Shown here piece after piece: positions 8,288-63,838 of a stretch of 64,000 nt of DNA (its first letter is position 1; the number at the start of each line of letters is the position of its first letter). The position numbers and the translations under genes were made by a program. The notes under the pieces were generated by a model that worked only from the letters and a program-made list of their open reading frames with translations, had not been told where the DNA came from and made no database searches. The stretch is taken from contig NC_049987.1 in NCBI RefSeq assembly GCF_000003815.2, positions 24,502,283-24,566,282 on the forward strand. The letters run 5' to 3'. The stretch is from Branchiostoma floridae (Eukaryota; Chordata; Leptocardii; Amphioxiformes; Branchiostomatidae).

Positions 8288-8348
8288 TTACAATAGTTTG
8301 ACGAATTTCTTAGTGATGAGACTATGGAGCTTCTTGTCGGTGCCATAG
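8288..8348 (-). repeat. Duplicate of the 3' end of the BHMT-like last exon
   Basis: About 60 bp (ACAATAGTTTGACGAATTTC through GTCGGTGCCATAG) repeat the segment at 8350-8409, which encodes the C terminus. The copy lies immediately downstream of the stop codon on the transcribed strand, with several substitutions. Confidence 0.85.
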
Positions 8349-11300
8349 TTACAATAGTTTAACGACTTTCTCAGTGTTGAGACTATGGAGCTTCTTGTCG
8401 GTACCATAGGCGAAGTGCTGGCTCATGTCGGGGGAGTACTTGCTGGCGGGCGGTGTGCGGCCCAGGGACTCGGCCAGGGTCCGGGTGAAGTGCGAGGCGT
8501 TCCCGCAGCACAGCCCAACGTACTGCAGCCCCAGCTGCCGGCACCGCTGCCCGAACTCTGCGATCATGCTGCGGCTGCACAGGAACGCGTCAAGGTCCGT
8601 GGGAAAAGCGCGCTCTCCTAGAAAAAAGGGCAATCAAGAAATGAAGCCTCAATACCCACCTGTGTCTGTCCCTGGAGCTATTGAAACAAAGATGAGCGCC
8701 AATGCTATATGTCGTAAGGAAAACATAAGTTTCACCTATCATATCTAATCACAACGAACAGCTCATGACCCAAATTAAAGAGCAGTTGCTTGATATGATT
8801 TTGAAAACGGTCAGTTGTTTCAGTCAGTAACCTTAATAGACGTAACAGCTCATGGGTCTAAGAATGTTCTTTCTATGAGGAACTACAATCGTGTGTTGTT
8901 AAGGATACACACCTTTATGGTTGACCAGAGACTGCATGGTCGGCCTCAGCTCGTCACAACGGAACGGCACGGGCAGGGCGGCAACAGGAACCTACAATCA
9001 CGCACAGGACTGCTATTTATCGGTATATCCAACGATACAGCGACATTAAAAGGCAAATAATCGGGCTAGATAATGGTTATCTCTGCGATTGCTATATGCC
9101 ACTTTACTACCGGCAGCATGGTAAAAGTGATTTTCAAAAGATTATCAAAGAGCCATTACGAAGATGTAACCATATACTTATAAACCTAAACTCTCATGAA
9201 AGATATACTTTTCTACCTGTAATATAAATTGTTATTTTGTTAAAAAATAAGTAAAATTCTATAGTCACTTTTTGCAGTTGTCTAAGTAACTTGAATCTTC
9301 CGTATTCTACACATTGAATTTTATTTGACCTTGATCTTGTCCTTTATCCTCTCCACCAGCGGCAGCATAGTGAAGGGCCCCCGCCCGCAGTTCAGCCCCA
9401 CCACGGCGGCTCCGGCCTCCTCCAGGGCCCGCATGGAGTCCAGCAGGGAGAGCCCGTCCACACTCCGGTCCGCGTCTTTGTGGAACGTCATGCACACAAC
9501 CGCCGGGAGACCTGGTCAAGCAACGAAACATCATCTTCATCATCACATCATCATCAACATCAGCATCGCAACATCACATATTCATCTTCATCATCACAAC
9601 ATCGTCATCAATATCAGCAAGCGTTAGTCCACACTCCGGTCCGCGTCTTTGTGTAACGTCATGCACACAACCGCCGGGAGACCTGGTCAAACAACGGCGC
9701 GGTTAACAGACACACAGCATTAGTTGATGCACTGTGCAAGTTACAACTAAATTTGGCAAATTTGTCTCAGTTTCAAAACGTATCAGAAGTACAACATATC
9801 ATAATATATAGCTAACAAAGGTGAAGACATGAAAAACGCTTTTTATGGTAGAGTATAGAACCAAACGTTTGACGACAACGCAAGCACGACGTTGCCAATA
9901 TAGAAACTCACCTTTGCTGTACTTGTTGATGCACTCCAGCGCCAGCTTGGCCTCAGCCACCATCCCGTACGTCTCTGCCACGATGAAGTCCGCCCCCTCC
10001 TCCACTGCCCACTCGATCTGTTCCTGCAATGGAGAATCGTGTCTTAGTCACTTAGTCGCATTTCAGCTTTTAAAGATTGGAGTGCCGAAGATGTTGAATC
10101 ATAAGGAGACATCTCCGACTCTCCTATTCACAACCGAATTGAAACTTCCAAAGTCGGTAAAGTCTTTGAAATCTAGTACTTTTAGACTATCTCTTTGGCA
10201 ATTCTCTACTACTTTTCTTCAGCCCGTAGAAGAGTCTGGTGAAGGCTAACTTTGTTCCGTGAGTCCCAACGATATCTTTCTATCGCAACGGGTCAAATGT
10301 GCCGGGTAGCCAATATCAGCCCCCGTCTCTGTTAAGGGATGGTCGGTGGGCTCAATTGTAGGTTACTGCATCATTGTTTATCTTACCTTGAATATAGTGA
10401 TACACTCCTCGTGTGTGGAGGGCACGTTGGGGTCGAACACGGTGGTGTTGCAGATGTTTCCCGCCATGAGGGTGCCGGTCTCGTCCGCCACCTCCCGGGC
10501 CAGCCTCAGGGCGGTCCGGTTCATGGGCTCCAGGTCAGCCTCGCGCCCGATAACCCGCAGCTTCTCACGGTGCCCGTAGTACTGGGTGGGAGATATATGT
10601 ATATGTTAGTGTTACTGATGTTTCCCGCCATGAGGGTGCCGGTCTCGTCCGCCACCTCCCGGGCCAGCCTCAGGGCGGTCCGGTTCATGGGCTCCAGGTC
10701 AGCCTCGCGCCCGATAACACGCAGTTTCTCACGGTGCCCGTAGTACTGGGTGGGGAAAAGGGGATCTTTGTTCAAGAAGATTTGCATCGTGCAATGGTTA
10801 GTGACCCTGCCTCTATGTGATTCGCTTGTCGAAAGTAGCCAGGGGTAGCCTGGGTACCATCCGGATAGTAGTTCGCTCCTATCTTCGCTTCCGCTATCAT
10901 GATACACAGAAACACAGAGAAGCGACTGTATATAGTGTATAATGAATGTCAGAGCTAATAGCGACTGTATATAGTGTATAATGAATGTCAGAGCTAATAG
11001 CGACTGTATATAGTGTATAATGAATGTCAGAGCTAATAGCGACTGTATATAGTGTATAATGAACGTCGGAGCGAACTACTTTCCGGCTGGTATCCAGGCT
11101 AAGCCAGGGGAGTTTGAACCTGTAAATACTGTACATATCGCTCGTCTTCTCTGTCACAAACAGTGATAAAATAGCTCTTCAGTCAGTTAATCCGATTGGA
11201 GAGGGCTTTTCGTTTTCGATGTTGTATGTTGTTGAGTTTGATCTGAATGAATGTAAAAATAAAGAAACGAAAATGGAAACAAACTACTAGTATCTGTAGA

Positions 11301-12227
11301 CAGTGTCCTAACGGCACGTCTAAATTTTTTGAGTGCTTTTTTCTTAGCCTTAAAGTAAGATAATGCAGTGAAGGTTAAGTTCACCGTGAATGCCAGCACT
11401 ACGTCACTTCCGGCGTGTACGAACTCCCGGTACAGCCCCTTCACCAGTTCCGGATGTTCCACCACCACTTCCGGTACGAACGCTCCGGCCTTCAGGTAGC
11501 CGCGTCGCTCGAACTCGAACAGATATCCCTCCGCCACGACAACGGTCTCCCCAGCTTTCAGGCGCTCAAGCAATCCTGTGACATAACGTTACATTTGGGA
11601 ATAAGAAATTAGTGAGTCCGCTAATGCGATTTAGAAGTAATCTTTACCAAACTATATGTTTCATACAAAGAACACTCGTATGTAATAATTTAATTTGGCC
11701 CGCGCCTGTGGCGTAGCCAAAAATCACTCCAATATTTGTGTTTCTCACAATGCACACTCTATGGGAATACTGCATTTTCCCCACAGTTACTCTATGCCAC
11801 TTCAGGCTGCATTCATCAGCTCGTTCGGCACCCATCAATATAAAGTCCTGCCCTTTGGCTTATGCAACGCGTCTTCTTCCTTTGTGGTGGAAGTAAATGT
11901 TCTGTTCTGCCATTTCGAGCCAGGCAACAAAACTATCCACATTGCGAGAGCATGTCAATAATCCGACATAAGGCCGATAGACCTTTGACCTGTTGAGCAG
12001 CCACACATCCCTGTATGTATGTCGTTTGAATGACACTGTACCCGGAGGGCGTTCTATGTTATACCCCGGTGATTAAGTGAAAACAGCGCAAGCTCTATAC
12101 TGCGAAAAACAACTGTGGCTTGTCACCAGTTGACACAAGGTTTAGACACTTATAATGAAATTTGTTAAAAGCAAAGTTAAAACAGTGGCTAAGAAAGAAG
12201 CAACGTACCTTTGGGTTTAGGCGGCAT
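8349..12227 (-). CDS. BHMT: Betaine-homocysteine S-methyltransferase-like protein
   Basis: Seven exons on the minus strand: 12227-12209, 11575-11385, 10581-10387, 10023-9912, 9511-9330, 8991-8913 and 8617-8349. They make 1,047 nt, or 348 residues with ATG (MPPKPKG) and stop; all phases fit. The family is a cytosolic zinc enzyme moving a methyl group from betaine to homocysteine to give methionine. The three zinc cysteines are present: VGLNCGRG in exon 5 and VGLCCGN in exon 7. [11 protein letters not shown] resembles the betaine-side loop, and [11 protein letters not shown] keeps the glutamate of human AEYFEHVEEA but replaces the next Tyr with Thr. Near the N terminus the family's GDGG motif is VAEG here, so the homocysteine pocket may differ. 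It is about 60 residues shorter than human BHMT, mainly at the C terminus. Partial exon copies lie at 8288, 9629 and 10612. Substrate is inferred from family only. Confidence 0.88.
9629..9690 (-). repeat. Non-functional partial copy of BHMT exon 5 with its acceptor
   Basis: It repeats the acceptor (CCAG) and first 48 or so nucleotides of the exon at 9511. It carries a Phe-to-Leu change and an in-frame TAA right after the duplicated part, and lacks a donor. It lies upstream of the true exon in the transcript. Confidence 0.85.
10612..10745 (-). repeat. Partial copy of BHMT exon 3 with its acceptor
   Basis: It repeats the acceptor CCCACCCAG and about 130 nt of the exon starting at 10581, with about two substitutions in the coding part. 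It diverges after GGGAAACATC and has no donor; reading through shifts into the wrong frame at the true exon. It is predicted to be skipped. Confidence 0.85.
10790..11165 (+). mobile_element. SINE family B split by a nested MITE
   Basis: The SINE body is recognisable by comparison with 39718-39960. GGTTAGTGACCCTGCCTCT and GCTTGTCGAAA lie left of the MITE, and GAACCTGTAAATACTGTACAT lies right of it. The MITE at 10845-11101 interrupts it. Confidence 0.6.
10845..11101. mobile_element. MITE family A, copy 1, with 8-bp target duplication
   Basis: Termini are TAGCCTGGGTACCATCCGGA and the inverted GGTATCCAGGCTA. AGCCAGGG flanks the element on both sides (10837-10844 and 11102-11109). Inside are four tandem 39-bp units containing GCGACTGTATATAGTGTATA (10922-11070). 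It lies in BHMT intron 2. The 8-bp duplication suggests a hAT-type mover, which is inference. Confidence 0.8.
11806..11890 (+). pseudogene. Relic of a Ty3/gypsy-type reverse transcriptase
   Basis: A plus-strand reading contains [18 protein letters not shown]. This matches the conserved gypsy reverse-transcriptase block (Y-x-V-M-P-F-G-L-x-N-A-P-x-T-F). Only this block is left; the flanks lose similarity. It lies in BHMT intron 1. Confidence 0.6.
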
Positions 12228-12725
12228 GGTTGGCTGTTTACTGATTCACACCAACTTCTTGTTGGCACTTTTGACCTTTCTTTGTCCTTGCTTTGAGCGA
12301 CGGCGCTCAGAGCGGGCAATTTGCAAACGAGGCAGGGAACAAATCTATCGTGTGGTGTTTTATATACGGATGTGAACGTTCAAATCAGCGGTAAAGAGTA
12401 ATACATTCCAACGATTTCTCCGAGGATCATAACAATGTTGGTATCATATGACTCGACTTAAGCTTGATATTATAAGATACACCTGCTACAGAGCAAGAAA
12501 ACGCACCTGTTTCTAAAATGGGCTGGGCGGCGATGTTCAGCTAAGGTACAAGGGTCAGGGCGAAAGGTTGGGTTTTCCTCCGGTAAGTTTGTCTCCAACT
12601 AAGGGCACGGACACTCACTCAGACCCCAACCGTCACAACTACAAATTTAACACCTGGTTATGTAAACAAAAACAAAGAAACAAAAGCACAGATTTAGAGA
12701 AAGCCTGGCGAATACTGGATCAATA

Positions 12726-13050: not shown

Positions 13051-13239
13051 ATTTAGCAGTACCATGACACTAAATAATTACAGGGCATCAAAAGGGTCCA
13101 TATGAACGATTTGAAAGATGCAATGACTTGACAATATCACTTTTGTACGCATTCATTTTTATTCACAATTTAGTATGTACACTTAACCATTATTATTATT
13201 GGTTTTTGTCGAGTTGGGACTTTTATTTACACACTGTTA

Positions 13240-15804: not shown

Positions 15805-17384
15805 CTCAACAAAACGTTGAAGAGCAGATTTGAATAAAATCAAGAGCTGAATTTCTAGCAGACTTGCCCACTATTCTGTGGCAACTGGGTCTGCGAGCCC
15901 TCGTCACAATGTTGTGGCGGACCTAAGGACTTTGATCTGGCACGTGGGTAGCTTTGTGAGCTTTGTTGATTATACACAGTTGTTAATGATTGTCCCAGTG
16001 TACACATCCGTAACCCAATAGCAGTCGGTGGTTTTGGGGCGCAGCAATAACCCAGTGTCATTTATGGGCACGGGACAGGATGTAACTAGATATCAGGCAA
16101 TCAGACACTCTGGAATGGTCATGTGGGCTCTCCAAGCAGAGGTTAGGCTCTGGCTGGTTTTGGGTACTTTAGCCGTTTTATCGGGCTTTTTATTTCGTGA
16201 GGTATTCTCTTTGCTGTACGTCTGTCTGTCGATAAAAGAAAACCTGTCAAAATGGAATGTCCGATTAAAAAGTCTAAAAAGACGTCAAAAACACATCGGA
16301 GTTCAACTCCTGCTCGGAGAGTAGTAGTACGATCTCACGCAATAAGCGTTTCGGTAATTGTTTTATGTGGGTGGAAGTTGTTTACTTGTAAGAGGGGTGT
16401 GTTTGACAACAATGTTTACTTGTGATACAGGTATATTGTAAAACAAGGAGGTTCAATAAAGGAACACAGGTGTGAAAACATGTCTTTACTTCCAGGTTAT
16501 TTATCAATGTTCTTGCAAATGCCACTTTGTCCAGAAAAAAAACCCTCATAAATAAAGGCTCAAACAACAAACTTTTCCAGATACCAGGTTCGAGTATGTC
16601 AAGAAAATGGTCTAAATGATATCTGTGAAATAGATATAATATATACAATTCAAACAGCATCGCCACTGTGGACTGAAAATTATGGTGAATGGAAAGACCT
16701 TGACATTATCATGGGTTAAAAATAACAACACAATACAGGAGGACTTTGCTCTACTCCAGACAATACAAGTAAACATTCTATCAATCTATACTCCTCTCTT
16801 AAATGTTTCTATGGCAGGCCCTGGCTAGAAACATTCATGAAACATGTCCTAAAAACATATTATATATTATCAATCTTGAAGAGCAAATATATGAATAAAA
16901 AAACACTTGAAATACACTTTTACCTCTTTCTGATAGTAGAGGTACTAAGTTTAGAACACAAAAGTAGAGGAATACTCTAATCACAAGTTCTCTTTGATGA
17001 GTCCATTGAAATCATTCCAGCCTTAGGCATACAGTACATGTCAATATCAAAAGCAATTAAGGGTCTCCTGATTAGCAAAACTTCAAAACTTCACATCAAG
17101 CCAAATTGGCACTATGCAGTTTCCTGGCTACATGATAAAAACTGAAATGAAAGCGAGTCACTGATTGTATTCAACATCATAAAAACATGAAAGATTATCA
17201 AAAGTTCAGAAGTCACCTAGCTAGTTGCTATATTAGCACTAGTAGTAGTAATAGTCTTTTTTTTTAATTCAAATAAAAGTCTTTAATCAAAAGTTTTTGA
17301 TTATACTGCTGCTGGGGTCCCTGACACAGGGGTAGGCAGCAGTTGGCTAGTCTTCACACCGCACTTCCAGGCAGCCCCACTAAT
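15805..17384. other. Intergenic interval, no gene seen
   Basis: Separates the LAMP-like gene from the PIGM repeat array. AT-rich with short open frames only. A minus-strand open frame at 16382-16666 has no recognisable domain and I do not call it. Confidence 0.5.
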
Positions 17385-21980: not shown

Positions 21981-23145
21981 AACAGGTGAGACTTTGATTT
22001 GAATTTTTTGCTAATTATCTATCCCGTTTCGAAACTTTACAACAACTTATCGACGTTTTTGACAGAATAAAACGATGGTTCATCTCCCTTGTGAATATAG
22101 TTTCTGTACATGCCCGTACAGCGGAGTTATCTCGGTTGAAATCATTGCGTGATGTTGTGGTTTTAGGTTCAGAATCCGTTGAGTGAGTTAGACAGCATAC
22201 AAAACATCAGGTCACTTGTTGATTCCAAGTCTTATCGTTTGTAGCATCCGATTCATTCAAAGTTTTACGTACCATATACATACTTGGGATTAAAAAGAAA
22301 CAGCTAACAATGAATTCAAAAGTTACCAACTCTTGAGAGAAGACAATTTTGTCTTGTGGCTTTTGACAACAGGACTGACCATGATAATCGTTGTATCAAA
22401 TTGGTTCATTTATTCCCGCTACTACATACGAGTATATCACTGCTGTCAGATAGTGTCGATCCAACGTATACATAAAGTGTCTCTACTACTTATGAATTAC
22501 CTAGGATAGATAATGAAAGACTCATTTTATATGACACCAATTACAATGTCAGACTTAAATTTATATAAACAGCATACGGTTACCGTACTATTTTGCTGGT
22601 CAACTTTGTGAAAGTTTCAGAACATCTTTGTGTCTTTCCAGTTCTGCCTCAAGTCAATCGGGACAACTGGGAAAATGAATTGGGTTATGGTTTAATTTTA
22701 GGGTTAGAACTAAGGTTGGGTTTAGGTTAGTGTTAAAGTAAGTCTTTTTCTTGATGACAAGACATCTAGCTCTAGGGACCATCCAAGTCATGGTTTCGTG
22801 TTGTCTTACATTTGTTTGTGAACTTTGAATGATCCTGTAGGCATCTGTTGATGAGGGAGGGGGGAGCATTGGACCAGGGATCAGTGTCATGAGTCTGAGC
22901 GACCTGCCCGAGGAACTGAAACCTCTGGAGGGAGACCCTTACAGTGAAGATGAGGTATGGCATAAGTTTTGCTTCTTCCGAAAGTTTTGCTTCTGTTATC
23001 AGAAACAAATATTTACAAGTAAAGCTTCCTCACCTTTTTAAGACCAACTTACATAAAGTAAAACCAAATATCATCACAATCCATTCAGAGGCATTTCAGA
23101 CTTTCTTAAGTTATGCTCACCACAAATATGCTGAAACGTAGACAG

Positions 23146-23201
<56 letters not shown>

Positions 23202-56200: not shown

Positions 56201-59200
56201 AAAGATAGGACAGTGGCAACTGGCATCTACGTGCCAGCAGGTCTAACCCTCATATTGTGGGGAACAACAAAAGATAAAACAGTGAATGAGCGTAACATGA
56301 TAAGTTTGTTTTTACTTCTAGATGTTGGAGGATGGAGATGTGATCCAGCCGCTGCAGGGCCCCAACAACCCGACCTTCCCCGTCATGTACCGCCAGCACA
56401 TCTACTTCTTCTGCTCCATCCCCACACGCGAGAAGTTCATCAGGCACCCGCTCATGTACATCAGACAGCCCCCTGCCATGCCTGTGGTCCCCATCAGGAT
56501 GGCAATCATCGGGCCGCCCAAGTCTGGGAAAACTGCATGTAAGTACTAAAGAGAATAAGATTTAGTAAAAGGTTTTCACGGTTAAACAATTCCGTAGTAC
56601 AGTGGTAATGTATCAGAAAGACATATGAGAGATCAGTACAAAAAGTTTATCAGGCACCCGCTCATGTACATCAGACAGCCTCCAGCCATGCCTGTGGTCC
56701 CCATCAGGATGGCTATCATCGGGCCGCCCAAGTCTGGGAAAACTGCGTGTAAGTTTGAAACATTCTCCTATAATATTTGAATCCATGGGGTTATAATTTC
56801 GCTGTACAGAACAAAATGCAGTAATTTTTTGTGGAAAACATTACAGAATAAGAAAATGCATGGTATCAAGTACTACTTGCCTTTTATTTTTAAGCTGGTG
56901 TGTTACGCCGAAGGGCGGTTATACCAGCTATTTATTTATTTGTTTATTAATCTTTCAGGGTAGTCCCTACAGTTTTGATAAAACTGAGTTCCAAGGGAGC
57001 CCAAATCAACATAATGAACATAAACATAAACATAATAATAATCGTATAACATAAAACGTGACTAATCAAAAATAAGGAGGCCATCAGGAATGTGCTATAT
57101 TGATACAGATACAGATTTTCTTGCAAGTATTTATGCAATTTCTTCCAATGTTTTCCAGTGGCAAACCGGTTTGTGCAAGAGTTTGGCGTGATGCGGATCT
57201 CGATTGGTGAGGCCATCAGGAATGTGCTGACCAATCAGAAGAAGTCAGACCTGGCCAAGCTGATCAACGTACAGCTACGGAAGGGCCTGACTGTTCCCGA
57301 TGAGCTGGCTGTACAGGCACTGGAGGTATCGCTCATGGATATGGTACCCCAGACTAGAGGGTAAGGGAGTATGTGTGTGTGTGTGTGTGACCTTAAGTAG
57401 GACTCCCTTTGTATCTAGAAAAGCATGTTCAGCACCAGGGACAGCACCCTTGTTAGAGAAGGGTCTGATTGTTCCCGATGAGCTGGCTGTACAGGCACTG
57501 GAGGTGTCCCTTATGGACATGGTGCCACAGACTAGAGGGTAGGGGTTATACATGTATGTATTAGTAATGTTCAGCACTAGGGACAGCACTAGAGGGTAGG
57601 GGTTATACATGTGTGTATTAGTAATGTTCAGCACTAGGGACAGCACCCTTGTTAGAGAAGGGCCTGACTGTTCCCAATGAGCTGGCTGTACAGGCACTGG
57701 AGGTGTCAATCATGGACATGGTGCCTCAGACTAGAGGGTAGGACTTTAAGTAGGACTCCCTTTGTATCTAGAATAGCATATTCAGCACCAGGGACAGCAC
57801 CCATGTCACAGAAGGGCCTCACTGTGCCTTGTAAGCTGGTTATACAGTTGTCAGTTGAGCTACAGGGACATCATACATGTAAAAAAACCCATATCTCCTC
57901 TTCATTTCATGCCCGAAAACCAGATACATTGATTTACTATGTACTGTCCTTGGCACTTAAATTACAGCAATGCCCTAATTTTGTGTTTTCTTAACTGTTT
58001 CCTCTCCCACTTAGAAGAGCAAACTGCGTGCAGAACTGTCGGAATGCTGATATTGAACATTAATGCTGCCGTGCTGGGGTATGATATAAAACAGGATATG
58101 TCCTATGGGGTTTCCATATAACCAAGCAGCATGATTGTGGGGAAAAAAGTGAACAAAAGTGAAAACAAGGCATTTCACCCTGCAGCTTCACGGAGATTAC
58201 CACAACAAACTTTTAGTATCTTTTCATAACTCCTTTGTCTCTTTCTTCTCCCACCAGATATGTGCTGGATGGTTTCCCTGCAATATGTCCTAAATAGAAA
58301 CTCACTGTATATTTTGCATAACACTTTTGTCTCTTTCTTGATTGATTGATGATGACTGGTTTATTCAAACACATATAATATACATGACCCAGATAGCAGC
58401 CCTAAGGCTGAATTGATAGGCACATTTACATTTACAATTGCAATAAAATACATATTGTCATCATTAAAAACAGGCATTCTACCGACTAACACCATTAAGC
58501 AATCTAAAAACTATTCACACAGAGTCATCGTTTAGCAGGGAAACCATATAGTTAATCGGGCTTCTCTTGAAACGAGTAGTGTTCGCTTTCAGAGTCTGGA
58601 GCCTGTTACTAGACCGAGTCTCTCTACCTGAGATCTCCCCACAGCATGGTGGGAGCCAGTTTCTGTAGATCGGGGATCTCCAGATGGAACTAGCATACGT
58701 TCTGCACAGTTCCTCTCGTCTCTGAGACAGTGGTGTGAGAGAGAGTTCAGTGAGTGCAGAGCCGTAGCAGGTGTAGTTCTGTCCAAGGATTATCTTACAT
58801 GCTCTCTTCTGTACTCTCTCTATTGACCTAGATTCAGCAACGGTCAAACCTGGATGCCATACTTGGCATACGTATTCTAAAACTGGGCGAACAAAACCAA
58901 TGTAGACAAGAACAAGGTCACAGGTAGTCAGGCAATACTTGGACAGTGTTCTTAACATGTACAGTCTTCTGCTTCCCTTCCCTACAATCCCTTCAACATG
59001 TTTCGTCCACCTGAGGTTGCTTTGCAATGTAAGACCTAAAATACGTGCAAACTCGACGACCTCCAGCTGTGTAGGACCAACTGTGATCACAGGTAGGGGT
59101 GGGGGGTGCTTCATGAAACAGAACACGAGGACTTTACATTTCAGCGGATTTAATGTCATGTGGTTGTCATCAGTCCAACGGGCTAGGCCGTCAATGTCAT

Positions 59201-62200
59201 CTTGGATGGTTGGCGCACTGAGCATGTGTCGTGGCTCCAACAACGACAGGTCGTCGACATACTTGAAAGTGTCTGCTGTAGATTGATCGGCAGGAACCGC
59301 GTCATTCACAAGTACCAAGAAGATCAATGGCCCTAGCTTGGTACCTTGATCTACTCCACATGTTAATGTCTGCCATTCGGAAACTTCACCTTGGTACTTG
59401 ACGCGCTGGCGCCGTTCGGTGAGAAAACTGATGATCCACGGAACGACAGACGGGCGCACTCCGAGCTCGATCATTTTGTTGACGGCAGTTTGGTGATGGA
59501 CAGAGTCAAAGGCGCGTGTGAAATCCGTGAGCACTAGTGTTGACACATGGCTTCGTTTGTCGGCTGTTTCCAGCAGCTTGTGTGTCAGGAGCGTAAGGTA
59601 GTGTGTGGTCGACCGGCCACGCAGGGATCCATACTGGCGCGGGTCTACACTAGGAAGTATGTCCTTGAGACACCAGTCCGTAATGATGCCTTCGCACACC
59701 TTGGCAAACAGTGATGTCAGTGAGATGGGTCTTAACTTTGACAGACTAGGCGGCATTTCCTTCGGGACCGGTATGACGTCCGCGTCTCTCCAAGCCTCAG
59801 GAACAACACCCTGACAGAGCGATGTGTTTATAATATCACACAGTGGTTGGCTCAGCTCAAACGCGAACTCCCGCTGACAATTCTGGGGGAAATGTTGTCG
59901 CTGCCAGTAGCCTTACCGAGCTTTACCTGCTTAAGCCTGTGCCACATATCCCAGAAAGAGACAGTGGGTGGTGGGGCTGGGGCAGGCAGGTACGCTGGAG
60001 ATCCCTGAAGCTGCAGAGGGGGCTGTTGTTGTGATGCCGCTTCCAGGTGCACGTTGATGGCGTTCGCTACAGACTGGGGCGATGAAGACGGGACGCTGGC
60101 CACTTCAACACGAAGCTTTCTTCTCCCACCAGATATGTGCTGGACGGTTTCCCGGTGATATGTCCTAAGAGGAAACTTCTAGTATCTTTTCATAACTCTT
60201 TTTTTTCTTCCTCTCCATTAGATATGTCCTGGACGGTTTCCCTGCAATATGTCATAAAAAGAAACTCACTGTATATTTGCATAACACTTTTGTCTCCTCC
60301 TTCTCCCACCAGATATGTCATGAACAGTTTCCCTGCCATATTTCCTAGAAAGAAACTGTTGATATCTTGTCAAAACTCCTTTGTGAACCGTTTCCCTGTG
60401 ATATGTCCTAAGAGGAAACTTCTAGTACAGTAGAAGCTGCTTAATTGCACGGCCTATTTGCCGGTGACTTTCGTGCAATTATCCAGCTGGTGCAATAATG
60501 CAAAGCTATCCAGCTGGACCGCACCAGTTTGGGATTTGGGGACTAACAGAGATGTTAGCAAAAGTGTGCGGTAATCCGTTGTGCAATTATCTGGCTTCTA
60601 CTGTATCTTTGCATAACTCCTTTGTCTCTTCCTCCTCCCACCAGATATGTGCTGGACGGTTTCCCGGTGACGAAGCGACAGGTTGACCTGATGACCCAGC
60701 GCGCGATCATTCCCGTCGTCGTGCTCGAGCTGCAGGTGTCTGGCAAGGAGGTCATCGTGCGAGCCGGCAAGGACAGGTCATCGCCAAACAGGTACATGTC
60801 AATCATAGTTTTTATTTCGCATTTTCAGATCAACATTTGTTCAGAAAAGTTGTTCACTCACTATCCAGTTTATTGTCTGTTGTTCCCTATCAACCAAGGG
60901 TTAGATGCGCTTGCACAAAAAAACATTCAATTTGTAATTGGTGCATGGGTAAAACATGTATGATTTCAAAAATCAAAGTTAAAATACCATGTTCTCATAC
61001 AAGATTAGTTTGCTATTGAACAAATTAAACATTATATTGTAAGCTTTTGCAGAGTATTGACAGCTTTTGCTGCTTCCTTGTGATCAGTGTGCTTCTATGC
61101 AATTTTAGATAATAAAAAGATAACACTATTTGAGAAAGCAAGGAAAGAAGTAGTCTGTACTTCTTAAATCATGTTGTTTTTCTAGCTTACAACTCTTGTT
61201 TTTTTCTCTCCGAAGAACCCTTCCCCTGCACAACAGCCCCAGATCATGGCCATCAATCAGCCATGATAAAAGAATAACACTGGTAGAAAAGGCAGGCAAG
61301 AAGGTAGTCTATATTTCCCAGACGTTTTTTTTCTTGCTTACAACAATTCTTTTTTTCTTCTCCGAAGAACCCTGCCCCTCCACAACAGCCCCCAGATCAT
61401 GGCCATCAAGTAGCCATGATAAAAGAGTAACACTGGTAGAAAAGGCAGGCAAGAAGGTAGTCTATATTTCCTAGATGTTGGTTTACAACTTTTTTTTTCT
61501 CTTCAAAGAACCCTGCCCCTGCACGACAGCCCCCAGATCATGGCGATAAAGCTTGCAGCCTGGCAGGAGCAGGTGGGAGGGGTGCGGAAGTGGTACCAGA
61601 GCGAGCACCGCAACTGGCTGGGCGTCGACGGCGAGCGCTCCAAGTGGTGGGTCTGGAACACGGCGAAGACTGAGTCCCAGAAGAGCGTGCAGCAAATACA
61701 GACTTACCTGAAGAGCGTCGGGCAAGGTAGGCACAAAATCTTCTACTAGTTAAGGATCTCATTACCTATTTAGAGTAAGGACCCTAAAAAGTCCTGTTTG
61801 AATGACATTACATGATGAACTTTCAATGTCCACATTTGATTTTTACCAATTTAATTTGTTGGTTCATGGATTATCGCTCAACTGCAAAATCATGATGAAA
61901 ACAAATGTGGAAAAAAATGTCAAGAAGTGTTCATCTTTTTCTTAAACTGTACATATGTACTAAATTCTTGTACAAGATTTTCACAGATAAAGAAACAGTA
62001 ACTGTTGTTGCTCCAAAAATTATGCGAGGGTCAAAGGATGGGCACTTTGTAAGTTTATTTTGATTTCATTTTATTTTCATAACTGTCCCCAGGGAAGGCA
62101 GCGTCAATCGCGGACATGTGCGTTACTCCATCGGAGTTGAAAATTTGATCCGTGTATACTTTTGTGTTGGAAGAAAGTTTAGCATCGTACTATGATTACT

Positions 62201-63838
62201 ACCAGCACAGATGAGAGTACCATGTCATTTTCCTACCTGTTCTTTGGGAAGGCAACATCAGTCGCGGACATGTGCGTAACTCCATCGGAGTTGAAAATTT
62301 GATCCGTGTATACCTTTGCATTGGAAGAAAGTTTAACACTATGATTACTAGCTCCATGACATTTTTTCTGATTGTTTCCAGGGAAGGCAGCGTCGATCGC
62401 GGACATGTGCGTAACTCCCTCCGAGTGTAAGGCTCGTTTGGGAGACTTCGGCGAATACTGTCCCGTCAGCCTGGCGATAACAGGAGAACTGGTGGACTGT
62501 TCCACCAACCCTTCTCTGGAGTTCACAGCAGAGTTCAGGGGACACTACTACAAGGTACGGACACCTCTCTTTATCTCAGACTTATTACTTAGTAGATGAG
62601 AGGGTGGAGAAGGACGTGCACACCCCTTCTTCACCTTAGAAAGTCACGTGCAGGCCAGGTTACTCACCGTCTGCCTACCATTGTCTTCCGAGACAGATGG
62701 ATGCCAGCACACACATGTACATATACATGTACTTTGCTTTGATGCACAGGGTTCGATGAGAAGCAACGGCCACAGTCATATTTCATCATGGAAGATCTTA
62801 AACAACGGAACATGTGCTTTATCTCCTAAGAAAAATTAAGCACTCCCTTTTTTTGATGAGCCAGATGATTTGAAAAAAAATCGCGAAATTGTCTTCCCTG
62901 TGCAATCATCAGTGCATGTTATACTCGTAGATGTACTAATATTAACATGCATTGCTCAGCTGGTAGAAGTTTAAGACTTATTTTGTACCTTTATTTTATG
63001 GTTTGTAGTTAGCTGTACAAAAGTCACCGTTGATATAGCTTCATTGTATACATGAACATCCCACCTTGTACTCCTTGACGCTTTCATATAACACATAATG
63101 ATTAAACAAGTTCTTTAGGCTAACTTAAACGTCCCTTCTTTGCACTTCCTCAGATGGCTGGTAAGACAGAGCTTGAGAAGTTCCTGGCCAACCCTGAGCA
63201 GTTCACCCCTCCGCTGGCGCCACGGAAACTGCCGCCGCCCGAACTGCTGCCCCAGCGCAGAACGTCCGACGAGGTGCGGCTCATGTTCCCCAAGCAGATC
63301 GAGTTACAGGGCTACTGTCCCGTCACCTTCCTCGATGGGAAACTCAGGTGGGTGTTTCATTCTTTGCATTTATTTCTCCCACTCAACGTCGAAGCATTGC
63401 TTTTCAGAGGAACTTGAAATTGGATAGGCTATAGCCTGGTTTAATTACTACTGTCCCAGTATCATCTTCTTTTATAATAGATGTGAAAAACTATATGACA
63501 AGAAAAGATTTCTTGACTTTTTTACCATACAACTGTACGGTAATACAGCCAATAGTGAGGGCAAGTAAACATTATCATGAGGATAATTATCATTTTACTT
63601 CTGCCTAGGACGGTAATGGTGCAACAGATCTCTCACTTATGTTCATCATCATCATCTTTGCCGCATGTCACTTATGTTAGATGACTAACTTAATGTTATC
63701 AATTTTTCAAAATCTGTTTCTTATGACCATTTACAGATACGAGGCGATTGTACCCAGGGAACAATGGAGCATTGTGGTAGAGTACAAGAGTAAGCTGTAT
63801 GTGTTTGAGACTGAAGAGAAGCTACAGAAGTTCATGAG
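21968..63838 (+). CDS. AK9: Adenylate kinase 9, exons 1-40 (3' end beyond window)
   Basis: Exons: 21968-21985, 22841-22954, 23408-23528, 24089-24141, 24511-24607, 25045-25157, 30639-30818, 31382-31513, 32300-32443, 33458-33630, 34343-34523, 35246-35390, 35687-35773, 36793-36930, 37530-37571, 38047-38209, 39204-39434, 41359-41459, 42234-42389, 43675-43845, 45013-45041, 46044-46227, 46923-47032, 48518-48565, 49305-49517, 50364-50552, 51442-51550, 51760-51803, 52330-52463, 52981-53200, 53791-54000, 55102-55218, 55677-55895, 56322-56538, 57159-57360, 60645-60791, 61509-61726, 62382-62554, 63154-63347, 63737-63838. Phases agree throughout. Four P-loops, Glu-rich linkers and human-like order identify AK9, a nucleoside mono/diphosphate kinase of about 1,900 residues. 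The start is MADVEQ. The exons with the weakest support are 14, 15, 19-21 and 28, which are acidic low-complexity or very short. Confidence 0.92.
22841..32443 (+). CDS. AK9: AK9 exons 2-9: kinase domain 1 with altered P-loop
   Basis: Exon 3 encodes IVIGKPGSGRTMLAQKLA. The Walker A lysine (GxxGxGKT) is Arg, at about residue 67, so this domain may bind nucleotide poorly. Exon 6 has GYVLDGFP, the NMP-binding/core motif of adenylate kinases, and PDFIVNLK. Exon 7 has an RRLGQRVDP lid-like segment and a run of Glu. Exons 8-9 (PEYITHNIQEYK, YLIELDAN) resemble the AK9 region that follows domain 1 in vertebrates. The intron between exons 6 and 7 holds a complete antisense LINE. Confidence 0.88.
23148..23200. 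repeat. (CA)n microsatellite
   Basis: About 26 CA units in AK9 intron 2. Confidence 0.95.
25415..25690 (+). mobile_element. SINE family C
   Basis: tRNA-like head with GGGTTTGATTCCCGG (B-box-like), then GGGAAAGGCACTTTACACGA, TCCACCCAGGTGTAAAAATG and GGTAAAAGGCAGTGGAAGGA. Inverted relatives occur at 40425-40870. It lies in AK9 intron 6. Confidence 0.7.
25819..28725 (-). CDS. LINE ORF2: endonuclease-reverse transcriptase
   Basis: Open from the codon after the ORF1 stop to 25819. APE-type endonuclease: SVLYTNSDQFPNK, LIVLTEV, GCVYRSPSS, VVITGDFNIKEIDW. Reverse transcriptase: NYRPVSLTSVVGKVLE, LDFKKAFDSVPHQ, SGIPQGSVLGPTLF and catalytic FADD in VKIFADDSKIY. CR1/jockey-type C terminus (RPHLEYANVVWGPH). 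The first in-frame ATG is 28602, which would cut off the first endonuclease strand, so ORF2 probably starts by another route. Nearest relatives are CR1-like by pattern; the clade was not tested. Confidence 0.9.
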   Translation of the reverse strand, partial: QADEDGHNTTQDGGEPFYCNDRPLSVLYTNSDQFPNKREELMFSIANDPPDLIVLTEVIPKAQVNPLRMCTIALDGYEIYTNFDPDELNLGPSGTRGIAIYFKKSLSLQVRVLDYGSVGFHEQLFLNFGLGNQVSLIVGCVYRSPSSEPVDSTTKLCNLLSRVCKENAKHVVITGDFNIKEIDWCSGMSTVGTGHHGQLLLDCLNDNFLTQHVMEPTRHRLNQQPSVLDLVITNEVMTIGNLQYAPGLGRGDHCCLTFSIDCVFDKTTESLPRRNFGKGNYGKAKEDLSKVDWDEMLGDLDVTGAWSQFCGIVGKVVDDCIPLTKPKQKPNKLYMNRQAMRARKKKSRAWSKWAKSGKVYDYVRYAKARNYLRSLTRQLCSSYERKLVKDLKSNPKVFWRYAKSRMSTRPKIASLVQPDGNIAESDYDKADVLNKYFASVFTNEDMANIPSMSTKPGVQTLDRIMTSQEIVRDKLANLNPAKSAGPDDLHPSLLKELADQLAYPLTQIFNKSLSVGKLPRNWKEAHVTPIHKKGSRTEPGNYRPVSLTSVVGKVLESIIRDILVDHFMVNNLFTDSQHGFVPKRSCTTQLLDVMNDWSLSLERGESVDSVYLDFKKAFDSVPHQRLLVKLKAYGIDGTLLTWMRDFLHQRRQRVVINGSQSPWCEVTSGIPQGSVLGPTLFVVYINDLPDVITSTVKIFADDSKIYRPICSHADQVALQRDLCAVEHWSEIWQLPFNAGKCKILHLGSKNQRAKYTLGGHELEQTRVEKDLGLAVDDQLKFHVNTAAAALKGNQVLGLVKRAFTNLDESSVPILYKCMVRPHLEYANVVWGPHFSTDQKIIERVQHRATRLVPSLKGMPYSSRLRKLKLPTLKYRRERGDMIQLYKIMTKKERIDPESFFELGNLDKTRGHCFKIKVPLARSNVRRQSFSTRTVRLWNSLPEEVVTANSVNAFKTMLDKFWEHKRYKE
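28726..29871 (-). CDS. LINE ORF1 with PHD-type zinc finger
   Basis: 381 residues from ATG 29871. A basic Ser/Thr-rich N terminus is followed by a PHD-like finger (CFCGSEHIEGG, then WIYCDSCSFWWHSSCAKL, then FTCAACI). A charged middle leads to a C-terminal nucleic-acid-binding region (KNNIILHNVPES, then KTTRLGK, then NRLLLVSL, then FIAPDLTRKERE) of the type found in CR1 and L1-like ORF1 proteins. It ends ENNRNRI with TGA, and the next codon continues in frame into ORF2. Confidence 0.85.
   Translation of the reverse strand: MPTTRLQGKRSASDRTAANGSSEASTSLTSRQRNKKRVAQPKENVEHKTYQSRQEAVVDVQKSQAGIICGNHGKLSERKQGKRVPLPEVPEIETEEANNASDSCFCGSEHIEGGQWIYCDSCSFWWHSSCAKLSDSTVSFLAKNSLDFTCAACIMGDMDAKVRNKRDVNKDRIVESVVGTLRDVTKKLDELLGDVTTEPEVEVGRDEGTVSSNVNTTTEEDAVATMVGDYISNVRREASVASHNGGRRDESIVTVEDYIETVRRKNNIILHNVPESSTDDHDTVFTQNVARELGIENLLIQKTTRLGKVTPGKNRLLLVSLNDPSDRYHLLKGAKLLNNSSSFKNIFIAPDLTRKEREISRRQREEKRQCGLVGENNRNRI
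31459..31937 (+). repeat. Tandem array of AK9 exon 8 3' end with donor
   Basis: The native exon end is followed by four copies about 103-114 bp apart. Each has CACAACATACAG, then 33 nt ending ACACTAGAG, then GTAACT and a stretch of CCCTAA-type repeats. The last copy has lost the donor (GAGCTATG). Each internal copy has both an AG acceptor and a GT donor around 33 nt. Confidence 0.92.
32485..32772. repeat. 20-bp minisatellite
   Basis: About 14 units of TTTGGGCCCCTATGCTGTGA with small variants, in AK9 intron 9, ending at the MITE that follows. Confidence 0.95.
32775..33199. mobile_element. MITE family A, copy 2, with 8-bp target duplication
   Basis: Termini CTAGCCTGGGTACCATCCGG and inverted GGATGGTACCCAGGCTA. 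GTTTTAAC flanks both sides (32767-32774, 33200-33207). It shares the GCGACTGTAT-TAGT-TATAATGAA units with copy 1, and has extra internal sequence not seen there. Confidence 0.85.
33458..39434 (+). CDS. AK9: AK9 exons 10-17: CPV/YHS-like module and kinase domain 2
   Basis: Exon 10 gives PRFRWRRSRW and a CPV box. Exon 11 gives a YHS-like IYVLSSPEAMEKFLKNPRPY and an intact P-loop, VVTGPPTSGKTSLCHLLA (Lys near residue 428). Exon 12 is a coiled, charged helix. Exons 13-15 are acidic, low-complexity linker. Exons 16-17 resume the kinase core with FGGWILDNFP, where Asn replaces Gly of the DGFP motif, followed by DDVVCLRDG and a Lys/Glu/Ala-rich helix. Confidence 0.85.
33840..34147 (+). mobile_element. 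tRNA-derived SINE, family A, copy 3
   Basis: CTATGTAGTGCAACTGGTAGC head, GGTTGAGGTTGTACCAGTCT body, and TGCCACTAGGCAC end. AK9 intron 10. Confidence 0.75.
34616..34855 (+). mobile_element. tRNA-derived SINE, family A, copy 4
   Basis: TCTCAACTGTTAGCAACCTC head, GGTTCAATCCTGGGTAGG box, GGGGCTTCACCTGTCTTTT body. AK9 intron 11. Confidence 0.7.
35050..35195 (+). mobile_element. SINE family A fragment
   Basis: CAGTTCAATCCTGGGTAGGG and GTTGGGACTGCATTTGTTTT match the family body; head and tail are missing. AK9 intron 11. Confidence 0.55.
35774..36300 (+). repeat. Tandem array at AK9 exon 13 donor
   Basis: The sequence that begins at the exon 13 donor (GGTACCTCATACACAAGTTT, then GGCAGGCAGA, then TTAAAGATGTTACCGTTGAC) recurs about five to six times. 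Each unit carries a copy of the donor-side GTACCTCATA. Confidence 0.8.
37020..37430. repeat. Two-copy repeat in AK9 intron 14
   Basis: A segment of about 170 bp with CACCTCACCAGTGTGCTATT, GGGTTGTTTTAAGAGTAC and TAGGCTATACAATAGCTAAC occurs twice, near 37060 and 37230, with a third remnant at about 37400. Confidence 0.7.
37725..37995. repeat. Diverged two-copy repeat in AK9 intron 15
   Basis: The words GATAGA-ATTTTTCCC, AGACTGGATTTCATTGAT or AGACCAGATTTTATTGGT, and TGGGCAGTTT appear twice in the same order, just before exon 16. Confidence 0.5.
38816..39190. mobile_element. MITE family B, full inverted-repeat copy
   Basis: The left arm (AGTTACTCAAGCAACTGGAT, then GTTTTGGAAATGCTCAGACA, then CAGTAGTTTTTGTCAGTGA) pairs with the right arm (TCACTGACGAAAACTACTGG through TTGCTTGAGTGACTACT, ending CTGGATGTCTAAGC). 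It ends about 15 bp before the exon 17 acceptor, close enough to supply its upstream context. Confidence 0.7.
39595..39690 (-). mobile_element. SINE family A fragment, inverted
   Basis: GTGCCTAGTGGCATATG and TTTCTGTAGCAGGGTATATG are the reverse of the family 3' end. It adjoins a family B SINE. Confidence 0.6.
39718..39960 (+). mobile_element. SINE family B
   Basis: tRNA-like head GTAATCAAGTGGTTAGTGGC with GAGTTCGATTCTGGC, then CTACCGGAAAGGGTTGCAGT, GCTTGTCGAAAACAGCGAGG and CCTGTAAATACTGTACATAG. Relatives at 49684 and, split, at 10790. Confidence 0.7.
40009..40350 (-). mobile_element. SINE family A, inverted, with an internal insertion
   Basis: Family A body in reverse, interrupted at about 40145-40262 by some 118 bp unrelated to other copies (starting GTCATAGGATTTCAGCGCC). 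The family resumes at ACCCCCATTTTAAGTCC and ends with GGATTGAATCGGGATCTCC. Confidence 0.65.
40425..40870 (-). mobile_element. SINE family C, two inverted copies
   Basis: CTACCGCCTTTTACCTTCCC and GGTGGAGTGAGGAAAGTG (first copy, to about 40600), then GTTGGAGTGAGGAAAGTGG and GTATCGAACTTGGGACCTC (second, to 40870). Reverse of the unit at 25415. Confidence 0.65.
40905..41265 (+). repeat. Two partial copies of AK9 exon 18 with acceptor
   Basis: TTGCACCATACAG followed by ACTAGAGGAAGAGC (exon-like from 40927), and TTGTACCATACAG followed by ACTAGAAGAGGAGCGTG (from 41240). The true exon starts at 41359 with ACTGGAGGAAGAACGTG. Neither copy keeps a donor. Confidence 0.8.
41359..48565 (+). CDS. AK9: AK9 exons 18-24: acidic linker
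   Basis: Seven exons encode an Arg/Glu coiled coil (exon 18), Pro/Glu/Gly and Glu-rich stretches (19-21), a structured patch with VEQWRQERGDFEREW (22), YQYRGWEY followed by an acidic run (23), and a short Lys/Pro exon (24, WKELERYKPKKPK). This matches the long acidic region between kinase domains 2 and 3 in AK9. Exons 19, 20 and 21 are supported by splice sites, phase and composition only. Confidence 0.75.
43371..43400. repeat. (CCCAA)n microsatellite
   Basis: Six CCCAA units in AK9 intron 19. Confidence 0.9.
43915..44345. repeat. Three-copy repeat in AK9 intron 20
   Basis: Units share ACTGTCGCTAA(T), CTGTGCT, TAATCTGGATTAA, GGATTAAG-CTAATTCAT and CATAAAACAAGCAACTTTAA. Period is about 110-190 bp with indels. 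Confidence 0.7.
45505..45640. mobile_element. MITE family B fragment
   Basis: CTTACTCAAGCAACTGGACA, GTAACGGTCAGACGTTTCAG, TTTCATCAGTGACAG and GCTGGATGTCTAATC. AK9 intron 21. Confidence 0.65.
45710..46043 (+). repeat. Two partial copies of AK9 exon 22 with acceptor
   Basis: CCCCTGCCAG followed by about 100 nt nearly identical to the start of exon 22 occurs at 45710 and 45884, ahead of the full exon at 46044. Each copy ends at TCAGGAACAT(C/T)GCTAACC and then repeats the intron segment CATTATTTCCTCTTGA. No donor is present in the copies. Confidence 0.92.
46240..46460 (-). mobile_element. SINE family A, inverted, copy 8
   Basis: CTAGTGCCTAGTGGCACATA, TTGCTAGCCCTTCAAC, CGGGTGCAACCCCAACTGAG and CCCAGGATTTGAAACG, in reverse of the family. 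It begins about 10 bp past the exon 22 donor. Confidence 0.7.
46495..46890. repeat. 22-bp minisatellite in AK9 intron 22
   Basis: About 16 units of GATTGACAGGAGGATGAGTTT. One interruption (46668-46692) is a copy of the exon 23 acceptor and start (TTACAGTGACGTACCAGTAC). Confidence 0.9.
47590..47798. mobile_element. Palindromic MITE, family C
   Basis: CTAGTTCACCTCTTTCCG, GGGGTAGCCTATATCCG and GATATCAAGTCAAC on the left are mirrored by GTTGACTTGATATC, AGGCTATCCCACGGAT and AAGGTGAACTAG on the right. Arms are about 80 bp around a 50-bp centre. AK9 intron 23. Confidence 0.8.
48790..48866 (+). mobile_element. Left arm of MITE family C, cut by assembly gap
   Basis: GATTCACCTTAATCTGTGGG, GTAACCTAGATTC and CTGGGTATTTAGAGAT match the left arm at 47590. 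The sequence stops at the N run. Confidence 0.6.
48867..48966. other. Assembly gap (100 N)
   Basis: A run of exactly 100 Ns, the usual placeholder for unknown size. It lies in AK9 intron 24, between a palindromic MITE arm and a GGTCCGGACC repeat. Confidence 0.99.
49129..49218 (+). repeat. Partial copy of AK9 exon 25 with acceptor
   Basis: TTTTTAG then GATGATGAAATCTGTAAGAG, running through ACGAAGCACTACAAC to AAACAGAAGC. It is diverged from the true exon at 49305 and lacks a donor. Confidence 0.88.
49305..55218 (+). CDS. AK9: AK9 exons 25-32: kinase domain 3
   Basis: Exon 25: GDTKHYDPVALKQ and YHS-like TYYFANPENRETFLEAP. Exon 26: intact P-loop VMLGARGAGKSLHSREL (Lys near residue 1064), then FHISFKERLLELI. 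Exons 29-30: PEWWNKEPFKSTGFVLEGFP, an E-G-F-P version of the core motif, then ILLV-like strand and DRLLPPRLAKWR. Exons 31-32: Arg/Lys helix, long Glu run and AVDRMKNELSEQFDDD. An assembly gap (53514-53613) lies in the intron between exons 30 and 31. Confidence 0.88.
49684..49880 (+). mobile_element. SINE family B
   Basis: GGGTAGTCCAATGGTTAGCG head, GAGTTCGATTCCTGC box, GCTACCAGAAAGGGTCACC body. AK9 intron 25. Confidence 0.7.
49962..50345 (+). repeat. Three partial copies of the AK9 P-loop exon 26
   Basis: Copies at about 49962 (diverged), 50130 and 50247 precede the full exon at 50364. Each has the acceptor (CCCTGCAG in the last two), about 60 nt covering PPPLRLVMLGARGAGKSLH, then the intron segment GCTGCTATATTACACATTTA. 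None has a donor. Confidence 0.93.
51985..52310. repeat. Degenerate TTAACTCATC(C/T)AG repeat
   Basis: More than 15 irregular units of about 17-20 bp (CATCTAGTTAACTCATCCAG and variants) in AK9 intron 28, ending just before exon 29. Confidence 0.9.
53348..53391 (+). repeat. Copy of AK9 exon 30 3' end with donor
   Basis: AAGGAAGGAGAGGGCCAAGG then AAGAAAGAGAGG/GTGAGT repeats the exon end at 53160-53206. Confidence 0.85.
53514..53613. other. Assembly gap (100 N)
   Basis: Exactly 100 Ns in AK9 intron 30, inside a cluster of exon-end copies. Confidence 0.99.
53614..53655 (+). repeat. Fragment copy of AK9 exon 31
   Basis: AGGAGAACCGAGCTGGAAGC then AAGGCAAAGC matches exon 31 from 53808. The gap hides whatever precedes it. 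Confidence 0.8.
54108..54177 (+). repeat. Copy of AK9 exon 31 3' end with donor
   Basis: GAAGAAGAGGAGGAAGATGA through GCTGGCAGAGGAGCTTGAG/GTAAGT repeats the last 60 or so nt of exon 31. It follows a short GTTAGATGTTAGGT microsatellite (54038-54107). Confidence 0.9.
54515..54912. mobile_element. hAT-like MITE
   Basis: Starts CAGGGATAAACAAGTCC and ends ACTTGTCTAACCCTG, inverted matches of each other. GAAAGGG flanks both ends (7 bp, possibly 8). Inside is a near-palindrome ACTTGCCCGATGGGCAAGT. AK9 intron 31. Confidence 0.65.
55677..61726 (+). CDS. AK9: AK9 exons 33-37: kinase domain 4
   Basis: Exon 33 carries KKPHIVRYTLYNKLKPLID. Exon 34 has YHS-like HIYFFCSIPTREKFIRHP and the intact P-loop AIIGPPKSGKTA (Lys near residue 1532). 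Exon 35 gives FGVMRISIGEAIRNVL and KGLTVPDELAVQALE, the NMP-binding part. Exon 36 gives YVLDGFPVTKRQVDLM. Exon 37 gives LPLHDSPQIM and RSKWWVWN. The exon 35-36 intron is swollen by exon copies, a truncated LINE and a MITE. Confidence 0.9.
56640..56755 (+). repeat. Copy of AK9 exon 34 3' end with donor
   Basis: About 105 nt from GTTTATCAGGCACCCGCTCA to GGGAAAACTGCGT/GTAAGT duplicate the exon end, including the whole P-loop (GPPKSGKTA). It lies 100 bp downstream of the true exon. Confidence 0.93.
57415..57835 (+). repeat. Copies of AK9 exon 35 3' end with donor
   Basis: Copies end at 57540 and 57738 (CAGACTAGAGG/GTAGG), with a short remnant at 57575-57600 and a decayed one at 57790-57830. Each full copy repeats about 85 nt (GATGAGCTGGCTGTACAGGC onward). 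Confidence 0.92.
58228..60425 (+). repeat. Array of AK9 exon 36 5' ends with acceptor, interrupted by a LINE
   Basis: Acceptor plus TATGTGCTGGA-GGTTTCCC copies occur at about 58258, 60133, 60220 and 60312, with a partial one at 60380, before the true exon at 60645. After TTTCCC each departs from the exon (GCAATATGTCCTAA and variants) and returns to intron. The LINE at 58340-60115 sits inside one unit. Confidence 0.9.
58340..60115 (-). mobile_element. 5'-truncated LINE with reverse transcriptase, target duplication CTTTCTT
   Basis: The minus-strand reading 59756-58515 (413 codons) carries RT motifs LTDFTRAFDSVHHQ, GVDQGTKLGPLIF and YVDD in FKYVDDLSLLE, then a typical LINE C terminus (RPVLEYVCQVWHPG). 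The frame continues upstream to about 59880, where a small indel shifts it. Another frame (60103-59885) holds VKLGKATGSDNISPRI. No endonuclease remains. The 3' end has ATCAATCAATC. CTTTCTT flanks both sides (58333-58339, 60116-60122). It is dead by truncation and frameshift. Confidence 0.88.
60428..60603. mobile_element. pogo/Tigger-like MITE with TA target duplication
   Basis: 176 bp with termini CAGTAGAAGCTGCTTAATTG and inverted CAATTATCTGGCTTCTACTG. TA flanks both sides. It splits an intron segment of the exon 36 array (CTTCTAGTA / TATCTTTGCATAACTCC). Confidence 0.8.
61195..61425 (+). repeat. Two partial copies of AK9 exon 37 with acceptor
   Basis: TCTCCGAAG then AACCCTTCCCCTGCACAACA (61217) and AACCCTGCCCCTCCACAACA (61368), each continuing through CAGATCATGGCCATCAA. 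The true exon starts at 61509. Copies alternate with AAAAGGCAGGCAAGAAGGTA intron repeats. Confidence 0.92.
62090..62330 (+). repeat. Two partial copies of AK9 exon 38 with acceptor-side sequence
   Basis: GGAAGGCAGCGTCAATCGCG (62094) and GGAAGGCAACATCAGTCGCG (62249), each followed by GGACATGTGCGT(T/A)ACTCCATCGG and then GTTGAAAATTTGATCCGTGT. The true exon is at 62382. The second copy lacks the AG just before it. Confidence 0.9.
62382..63838 (+). CDS. AK9: AK9 exons 38-40: tandem CPV/YHS-like modules
   Basis: Exon 38: ADMCVTPSECKARLGDF, EYCPVSL, FRGHYYK. Exon 39: ELEKFLANPEQFTPPLAP and GYCPVTFLDGKLR. Exon 40: KLYVFETEEKLQKFM. Two successive CPV...Y-x-F...KF modules are visible. The donor after 63838 is intact and the reading continues beyond the window. 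Confidence 0.88.

Follow-up and report, generated by a model that had tools for sequence, protein, structure and literature searches.

Tandem copies of exon edges are over-represented in AK9- and BHMT-type genes of Branchiostoma floridae and differ from their exons in a coding-like manner

Why do short tandem duplications in amphioxus DNA lie so often across the ends of exons, and what becomes of the exon pieces that they carry? The question is raised by a window of 64,000 nucleotides from Branchiostoma floridae (contig NC_049987.1, positions 24,502,283 to 24,566,282 of the forward strand; coordinates below are window positions unless a sampled stretch is named), in which a sequence-only reading had listed at least 17 duplications of a splice site with part of its exon, spread over three genes. 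Gene models were obtained from the sequence alone with a self-trained exon-chain model, which may miss small exons. On the + strand, they comprise a multi-adenylate-kinase gene of AK9 type (22841..63842), with 36 exons kept from the model and Pfam ADK matched in both pieces scanned; that the gene is AK9, and not a different adenylate kinase, is presumed, the name being that of the earlier reading. The - strand carries a BHMT-type gene (8349..11575, our own gene model; Pfam S-methyl_trans, E 7.6e-38) with exons at 11385-11575, 10387-10581, 9912-10023, 9330-9511 and 8913-8991 and a last exon, ending in TAA, at 8349-8617, where the model exon was lengthened by eye; the exon-chain model found no first BHMT exon in the window. 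A PIGM gene (Pfam Mannosyl_trans (PIG-M), E 3.9e-90) and a LAMP-like luminal-domain gene (13899-15770; Pfam Lamp2-like_luminal) lie on the same strand. These models agree, in order, with the exons listed previously. Left out of the counts were predicted exons that are themselves repeat copies, on the + strand at 45716, 45875, 49961, 56686 and 61368 and on the - strand at 10656-10745, 18999-19130 and 18631-18766, as well as weak + strand exons at the front of the model, ahead of 22841, and - strand exons that belong to none of the named genes.

The repeats are real: a comparison of the window with itself yields 29 local duplication clusters, made of direct repeats at offsets of 35-1000 bp, and all 17 places listed are tandem or local repeats. 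They concern the AK9 exons starting at 31382, 35687, 41359, 46051, 46923, 49305, 50364, 52981, 53791, 56322, 57159, 60645, 61509 and 62382, the BHMT exons 10387-10581 and 9330-9511, and the ends of BHMT and PIGM. Fourteen of them (12 in AK9 and two in BHMT) can be accepted as spanning a splice site, but the other places cannot. Each accepted array concerns one exon edge, nine being of the acceptor type (seven in AK9, two in BHMT) and five of the donor type. No cluster of the self-comparison overlaps the LAMP-like gene. The largest AK9 intron (25158-30638, 5.5 kb) holds no local duplication cluster either, and the following 32 kb hold 23.

The acceptor arrays of AK9, all on the + strand, precede exons 41359-41459 (40835..41382), 46051-46227 (45675..46147; two copies of a ~166-bp unit), 49305-49517 (49113..49382; one copy), 50364-50552 (49910..50420; three copies, the farthest being the most decayed), 60645-60791 (60116..60670; four copies in the comparison, plus another match at 58207-58339), 61509-61726 (61109..61551; two copies of a ~153-bp unit) and 62382-62554 (62067..62426; two copies, one without AG). 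Regarding donors, also on the + strand, exon 31382-31513 has its final 54 bp present in four copies at 31460..31938, together with CCCTAA-rich intron; the copies can be read as in-frame stretches of 33 bp between AG and GT, the last one having no donor. The intronic part of this array consists of telomere-like CCCTAA tracts (31517-31900), a possible source of branch points for the 33-bp copy cassettes. Single copies are found at exons 52981-53200 (53164..53402), 53791-54000 (53936..54214, with an ATGTTAG microsatellite at the junction) and 56322-56538 (56433..56754, 106 exonic and 6 intronic bp), and exon 57159-57360 has two (57280..57847). The copy of exon 56322-56538 has five exonic differences, all synonymous by eye, four of which enter the formal count. 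At 56680-56700, CCCCCTG has become CCTCCAG in this copy by changes that are synonymous in the frame of the exon, and this forms a new AG before an in-frame stretch of 63 bp. The intron downstream harbors a ~145-bp interspersed repeat (56921-57078), for which 39 of the 42 matches listed come from other places in the genome and are 77-97% identical.

Other AK9 places on the list are of a different nature. After exon 35687-35773, the donor is indeed copied along with intron (35774..36304, + strand), but the exonic part amounts to only ~2 bases. Upstream of exon 46923-47032, a 21-bp minisatellite (46496..46900, + strand) ends ~20 bp short of the acceptor. The donor array of exon 53791-54000 is sound, but the 34 bp copied from the 5' portion of this exon (53614..53842, + strand) adjoin a run of N, begin inside the exon and lack the acceptor.

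In BHMT, one acceptor array (10445..10754, - strand) holds 137 exonic and 9 intronic bp in a single copy, 164 bp upstream and 97% identical, and the other (9456..9696, - strand) 56 exonic and 14 intronic bp, likewise in one copy, with a TGATGA-type microsatellite between copy and exon. The splice-site copy formerly assigned to BHMT exon 7 does not stand: in an alignment judged by eye, the frame runs past the predicted donor for 18 more codons to TAA, and a paralogue in another stretch of the assembly (L033) continues likewise. The 61-bp duplication at 8288..8409 (- strand, frame by eye) therefore spans the stop codon and no donor, as does the array at the end of PIGM. The latter (17383..19500, - strand) repeats the end of the last exon with 3' flank: besides the working copy (19330-19500), seven copies extend down to 18107 at ~176-bp spacing, and one remote relic lies at 17383-17468. 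The PIGM copies lie beyond the stop codon, and simple read-through would not translate them there.

With regard to anatomy, the accepted copies consist of one exon end, mostly with its splice dinucleotide, and the extra copies lie on the intron or 3'/UTR side, both as the sequence-only reading had it. No exon is duplicated whole with both splice sites; each copy is part of an exon and has a single original edge. Repeat units in the tests, including those of the sampled stretches described below, measure 34-181 bp (roughly 30-180), with one outlier of 562 bp in stretch L034. AG or GT is kept in 22 of the 23 copies examined, and the 22 scored copies reach a mean splice-site score of 5.8 versus 6.3 for the working sites (Wilcoxon p 0.028). 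The offsets of the copied sites fall 10:6:7 modulo 3, with no clear frame selection. In five arrays, copying stopped 6-17 bp inside the intron. In nine arrays, neither the spacers nor the outer flanks have similarity above that of shuffled sequences (highest z 1.1), so that these are not simple old tandem duplications in which all parts have decayed equally. Microsatellite expansion accounts for two of the spacers, but not for that of 98 bp at 56545-56642. At exon 50364, the farthest copy is the most decayed; the other arrays have no clear gradient of decay.

Do these arrays occur at exon edges more often than chance would place them there? A cluster was taken to span an edge if it covered at least 6 exonic and at least 2 intronic bp, and in a strict null, units were placed at random with only harmless outcomes allowed, i.e., wholly intronic or spanning one edge. 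By this rule, 14 of the 23 AK9 clusters span a splice site, or 12 once two weak ones (39424-40091 and 46476-46976) are discounted. From the assembly used for matches and samples (513 Mb, 431 contigs), four 10-kb stretches with PF02574 matches (L031-L034; exon score limit 14) gave 19 clusters, nine of them at an edge, for 57 edges; of these clusters, 15 fall within the gene spans that entered the strict null, and the four stretches are not fully independent, L033 and L034 carrying related tandem genes. In L034, the start of a BHMT-type exon recurs several times upstream of that exon (3040-4464 of that stretch), and four of the copies were called as exons by the gene model; these predicted exons, at 3532-4330, were left out. 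For AK9, the window BHMT gene and these stretches together, 25 of 42 clusters are at an edge versus 7.3±2.4 under the null, a count reached in none of 2000 draws; at E 1e-8, the figures are 23 of 38 and 6.8±2.3. After the discounts, 23 of 42 remain (P 5e-8), and P is 6e-4 if edge arrays are granted a doubled detectable lifetime. A rotation null for AK9 gives 10.8±2.2 edge-covering arrays versus 16 seen (P 0.009), in a looser count that includes the unaccepted clusters 33882-35173, 39424-40091, 46476-46976 and 53614-53842. Counted against randomised positions, edge arrays are thus over-represented in AK9 and in the pooled AK9 and BHMT-type genes. Tolerance near splice sites, earlier put forward as one possible cause, is insufficient by itself, since the null restricted to harmless positions falls far below the observed edge count.

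The excess has limits. That nearly every copy lies at an exon boundary holds for the listed sites, but not for all repeats: nine of the 23 AK9 clusters are away from edges by the fixed rule (~0.25 per intronic kb) and 11 after the discounts (~0.31), seven (0.20) being non-edge in the looser count. A random genome sample has 0.15 clusters per kb (27 in 182 kb). Most of the AK9 excess is at edges, while the introns may be somewhat rich in repeats too. The median repeat period is 164 in the window versus 113 in the random sample, whose 20 stretches contain 11 exon calls, too few for an edge test. Two of these calls, both in stretch L007, overlap repeat clusters (95-214 and 263-812 of that stretch, offsets 90 and 123), which may be coding repeats or mirages; the other nine are touched by no cluster. 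Accepted arrays are found at 23 of 140 edges in AK9, the window BHMT gene and the PF02574 stretches, versus one of 45 in two stretches with PF00063 (myosin) matches (L035 and L036; exon score limit 12), which have a single cluster, at an edge. Arrays do occur in several genes, but their density differs so strongly between genes that the 'general process' proposed in the sequence-only reading is too strong a term.

In their exonic parts, the copies depart from the working exons mainly at third codon positions and seldom by indels, although neutral divergence amounts to 12-21%. The comparison rests on 23 copies of the 14 accepted window arrays rather than on every copy (e.g., two of four at exon 31382 and three of four at exon 60645). 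Differences are found at 18 of 447 first, 7 of 453 second and 69 of 450 third positions, at 50 of 223 4-fold sites and at 135 of 1132 intronic sites; gaps number 3 per 1350 exonic bp and 31 per 1132 intronic bp. Copies in L031-L034 differ at 1/91, 2/94 and 12/97 of first to third positions, at 8/47 4-fold sites and at 64/478 intronic sites. Pooled, the rates are 3.5% (19/538), 1.6% (9/547) and 14.8% (81/547) over the three positions, 21.5% (58/270) at 4-fold sites and 12.4% (199/1610) in introns. The second-position rate compares with 6.2% expected for a neutral copy (P 2e-7), a P value that, like the others here, is optimistic because sites and copies were treated as independent and copies within an array are related. 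Counted by eye, third-position changes exceed all others in 12 of the 14 arrays, with one tie and one array against (12 of 13, P 5e-4). Taking the longest copy of each array, 44 synonymous and 16 nonsynonymous codon changes are seen over 293 codons, versus 22.5±3.7 synonymous changes (maximum 34 in 1000 runs) in simulations where the exon takes synonymous changes only and the copy drifts freely. The two copies of exon 46051-46227 have synonymous to nonsynonymous changes of 3:0 and 7:0.

Two copies depart from this pattern. The farthest copy of exon 50364, with two synonymous and five nonsynonymous changes and two gaps, looks dead, as does one copy of exon 60645 with a ratio of 1:3. The single myosin array differs at 1/13, 0/13 and 1/13 over the three codon positions. 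Eight PIGM copies, relic included, compared with one another have a third-position excess (150:73:276 by codon position) even though they lie beyond the stop codon; stops and frame breaks are present, and about half of the codon changes relative to the working copy are synonymous. PIGM alone is a weaker case for coding-like copies. Among its units there is a mosaic signal (PHI p 0.019, in the one array tested).

The best explanation, which we hold with moderate confidence, is that these are mirage minisatellites whose arrays turn over by unequal exchange with the working exon. Short duplications spanning an exon edge make up the minisatellite, and unequal exchange between homologues would then turn the array over. 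On contraction, pieces of a copy would often become working exon, and on expansion, the exon would often be copied anew; each copy might thus have escaped selection for just a short time, despite an old split between copy and exon. Splicing would use the site attached to the remainder of the exon. For 2Ng of 100-300, forward simulations of unequal crossover between homologues, with two to five units and arrays kept at at least two, give a synonymous divergence of 0.09-0.13 and a nonsynonymous to synonymous ratio of 0.14-0.27. With 2Ng lowered to 30, the synonymous divergence rises to 0.20-0.22 but the ratio to 0.33-0.35, and slow exchange gives ratios of 0.53-0.67. With arrays fixed at exactly two units the ratio is 0.51-0.78, so that two-copy arrays would fit only if their length varies. 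In the runs that fit well, divergence is 9-13%, less than the 21.5% observed at 4-fold sites. Among the models simulated, unequal crossing-over comes nearest, imperfectly, as no run fits divergence and ratio together; a conversion-only model reached ratios of at most 0.22 only at divergences of at most 0.09, and missed the two together. For B. floridae, an Ne of ~1.7 million and a mutation rate of 5.89e-9 are given (PMC12862219). Over 3.4 million chromosomes, a 2Ng of 100-300 corresponds to ~1.5e-5 to 4.4e-5 events in each array every generation. Such rates are ordinary for minisatellites. Two-way exchange between copies and working exons would leave the edge excess itself unexplained, and the stops and frame breaks of PIGM, the 5:2 nonsynonymous to synonymous changes in the farthest copy of exon 50364 and the 1/45 edges in myosin count against it.

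Alternatively, the copies could be dead debris of random tandem duplications, with an edge bias arising from harmless survival and from easier recognition beside a conserved exon, which can double the detectable age. The position of accepted copies on the intron or UTR side is what survival demands, and the decaying copies of PIGM and of exon 50364 and the few arrays in the two myosin stretches are also in line with this. The selection-filtered null of 7.3 of 42 clusters, however, is well below the 23 that persist in significance with a doubled lifetime, and by our own estimate a neutral copy would take differences of ~1:1:1.7 over codon positions, unlike the codon-position pattern and the scarce exonic indels found here. 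We regard this account as unlikely.

A distinctly unlikely account is that the copies are translated as alternative exons or splice ends and kept coding-like by selection. The near-universal retention of AG or GT, with site scores close to those of working sites, would suit it, and in a permissive, frame-imposing model the donor-type copies at 31595-31832, 53355-53387, 54108-54170 and 56686-56748 can be read as in-frame cassettes. Acceptor-type copies, however, lack the original donor and the donors modelled for them are weak, the offsets modulo 3 argue for no clear frame selection, and the PIGM copies lie beyond the stop codon.

It is very improbable that two haplotypes of a highly polymorphic animal were placed in tandem by the assembly: allelic exon differences would likewise be mostly synonymous, one copy adjoins a run of N and the BHMT copies are 97% identical, but such an artefact predicts ~4% neutral difference (synonymous diversity in B. 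floridae is 0.0397; PMC12862219) where 0.215 at 4-fold sites and 0.124 in introns are seen, the four and seven extra copies in some arrays are more than two haplotypes could supply, and RT-PCR, two-haplotype and re-sequencing evidence has been presented for arrays at other loci (PMC3087553; PMC3902484). Among the matches listed in the assembly for AK9 55600-57500, neither a second allele nor a paralogue appears, only the interspersed repeat.

Returning to mirage minisatellites, the class itself is already known in amphioxus, and the label given in the sequence-only reading agrees with the anatomy described in the published accounts (PMC3087553; PMC3902484). Mirages are reported in the globin genes BflGb6 and BflGb9, with Adh3 cited (PMC3087553). 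As here, they are tandem repeats across exon-intron boundaries, at either boundary, with units of up to ~160 bp and AG or GT in many copies; the inner globin copies are described as alike (PMC3087553). Compared with that account, the present case has many arrays in one gene, an edge excess tested against nulls and a measured codon pattern. In lancelet PGBD5, imperfect tandem repeats of 60 and 108 bp overlap 5' and 3' splice sites or coincide with them, as in the window, and repeats in Adh and troponin C are also cited (PMC3902484); the passage on PGBD5 deals with one gene and contains no substitution analysis. Splice signals are likewise duplicated where introns are gained through tandem duplication of AG/GT sites (cited in PMC3087553), whereas here the copies lie in existing introns or 3' flank and no exon was seen to have acquired a new intron. 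The coding-like pattern of changes in mirage copies, absent from the earlier reading, looks new. Neither it nor the edge excess has a prior report in the literature titles and abstract openings covered, largely of non-subscription papers, which makes for a weak absence.

While the class is known, splice sites copied at nearly the strength of the real ones offer a natural test of how the spliceosome chooses its site. If copies and exons do swap, gene ends would partly evolve by recombination with their own spare copies, which would bear on models of intron gain, on estimates of exon diversity and on the annotation of amphioxus genes. It is conceivable, though we would sooner doubt than assert it, that edge minisatellites act as two-way reservoirs, in which copies in introns or 3' flanks repeatedly become exon ends and are re-made from them. 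Were this so, exon ends in amphioxus would evolve in concert with shadow copies richer in synonymous diversity than ordinary alleles.
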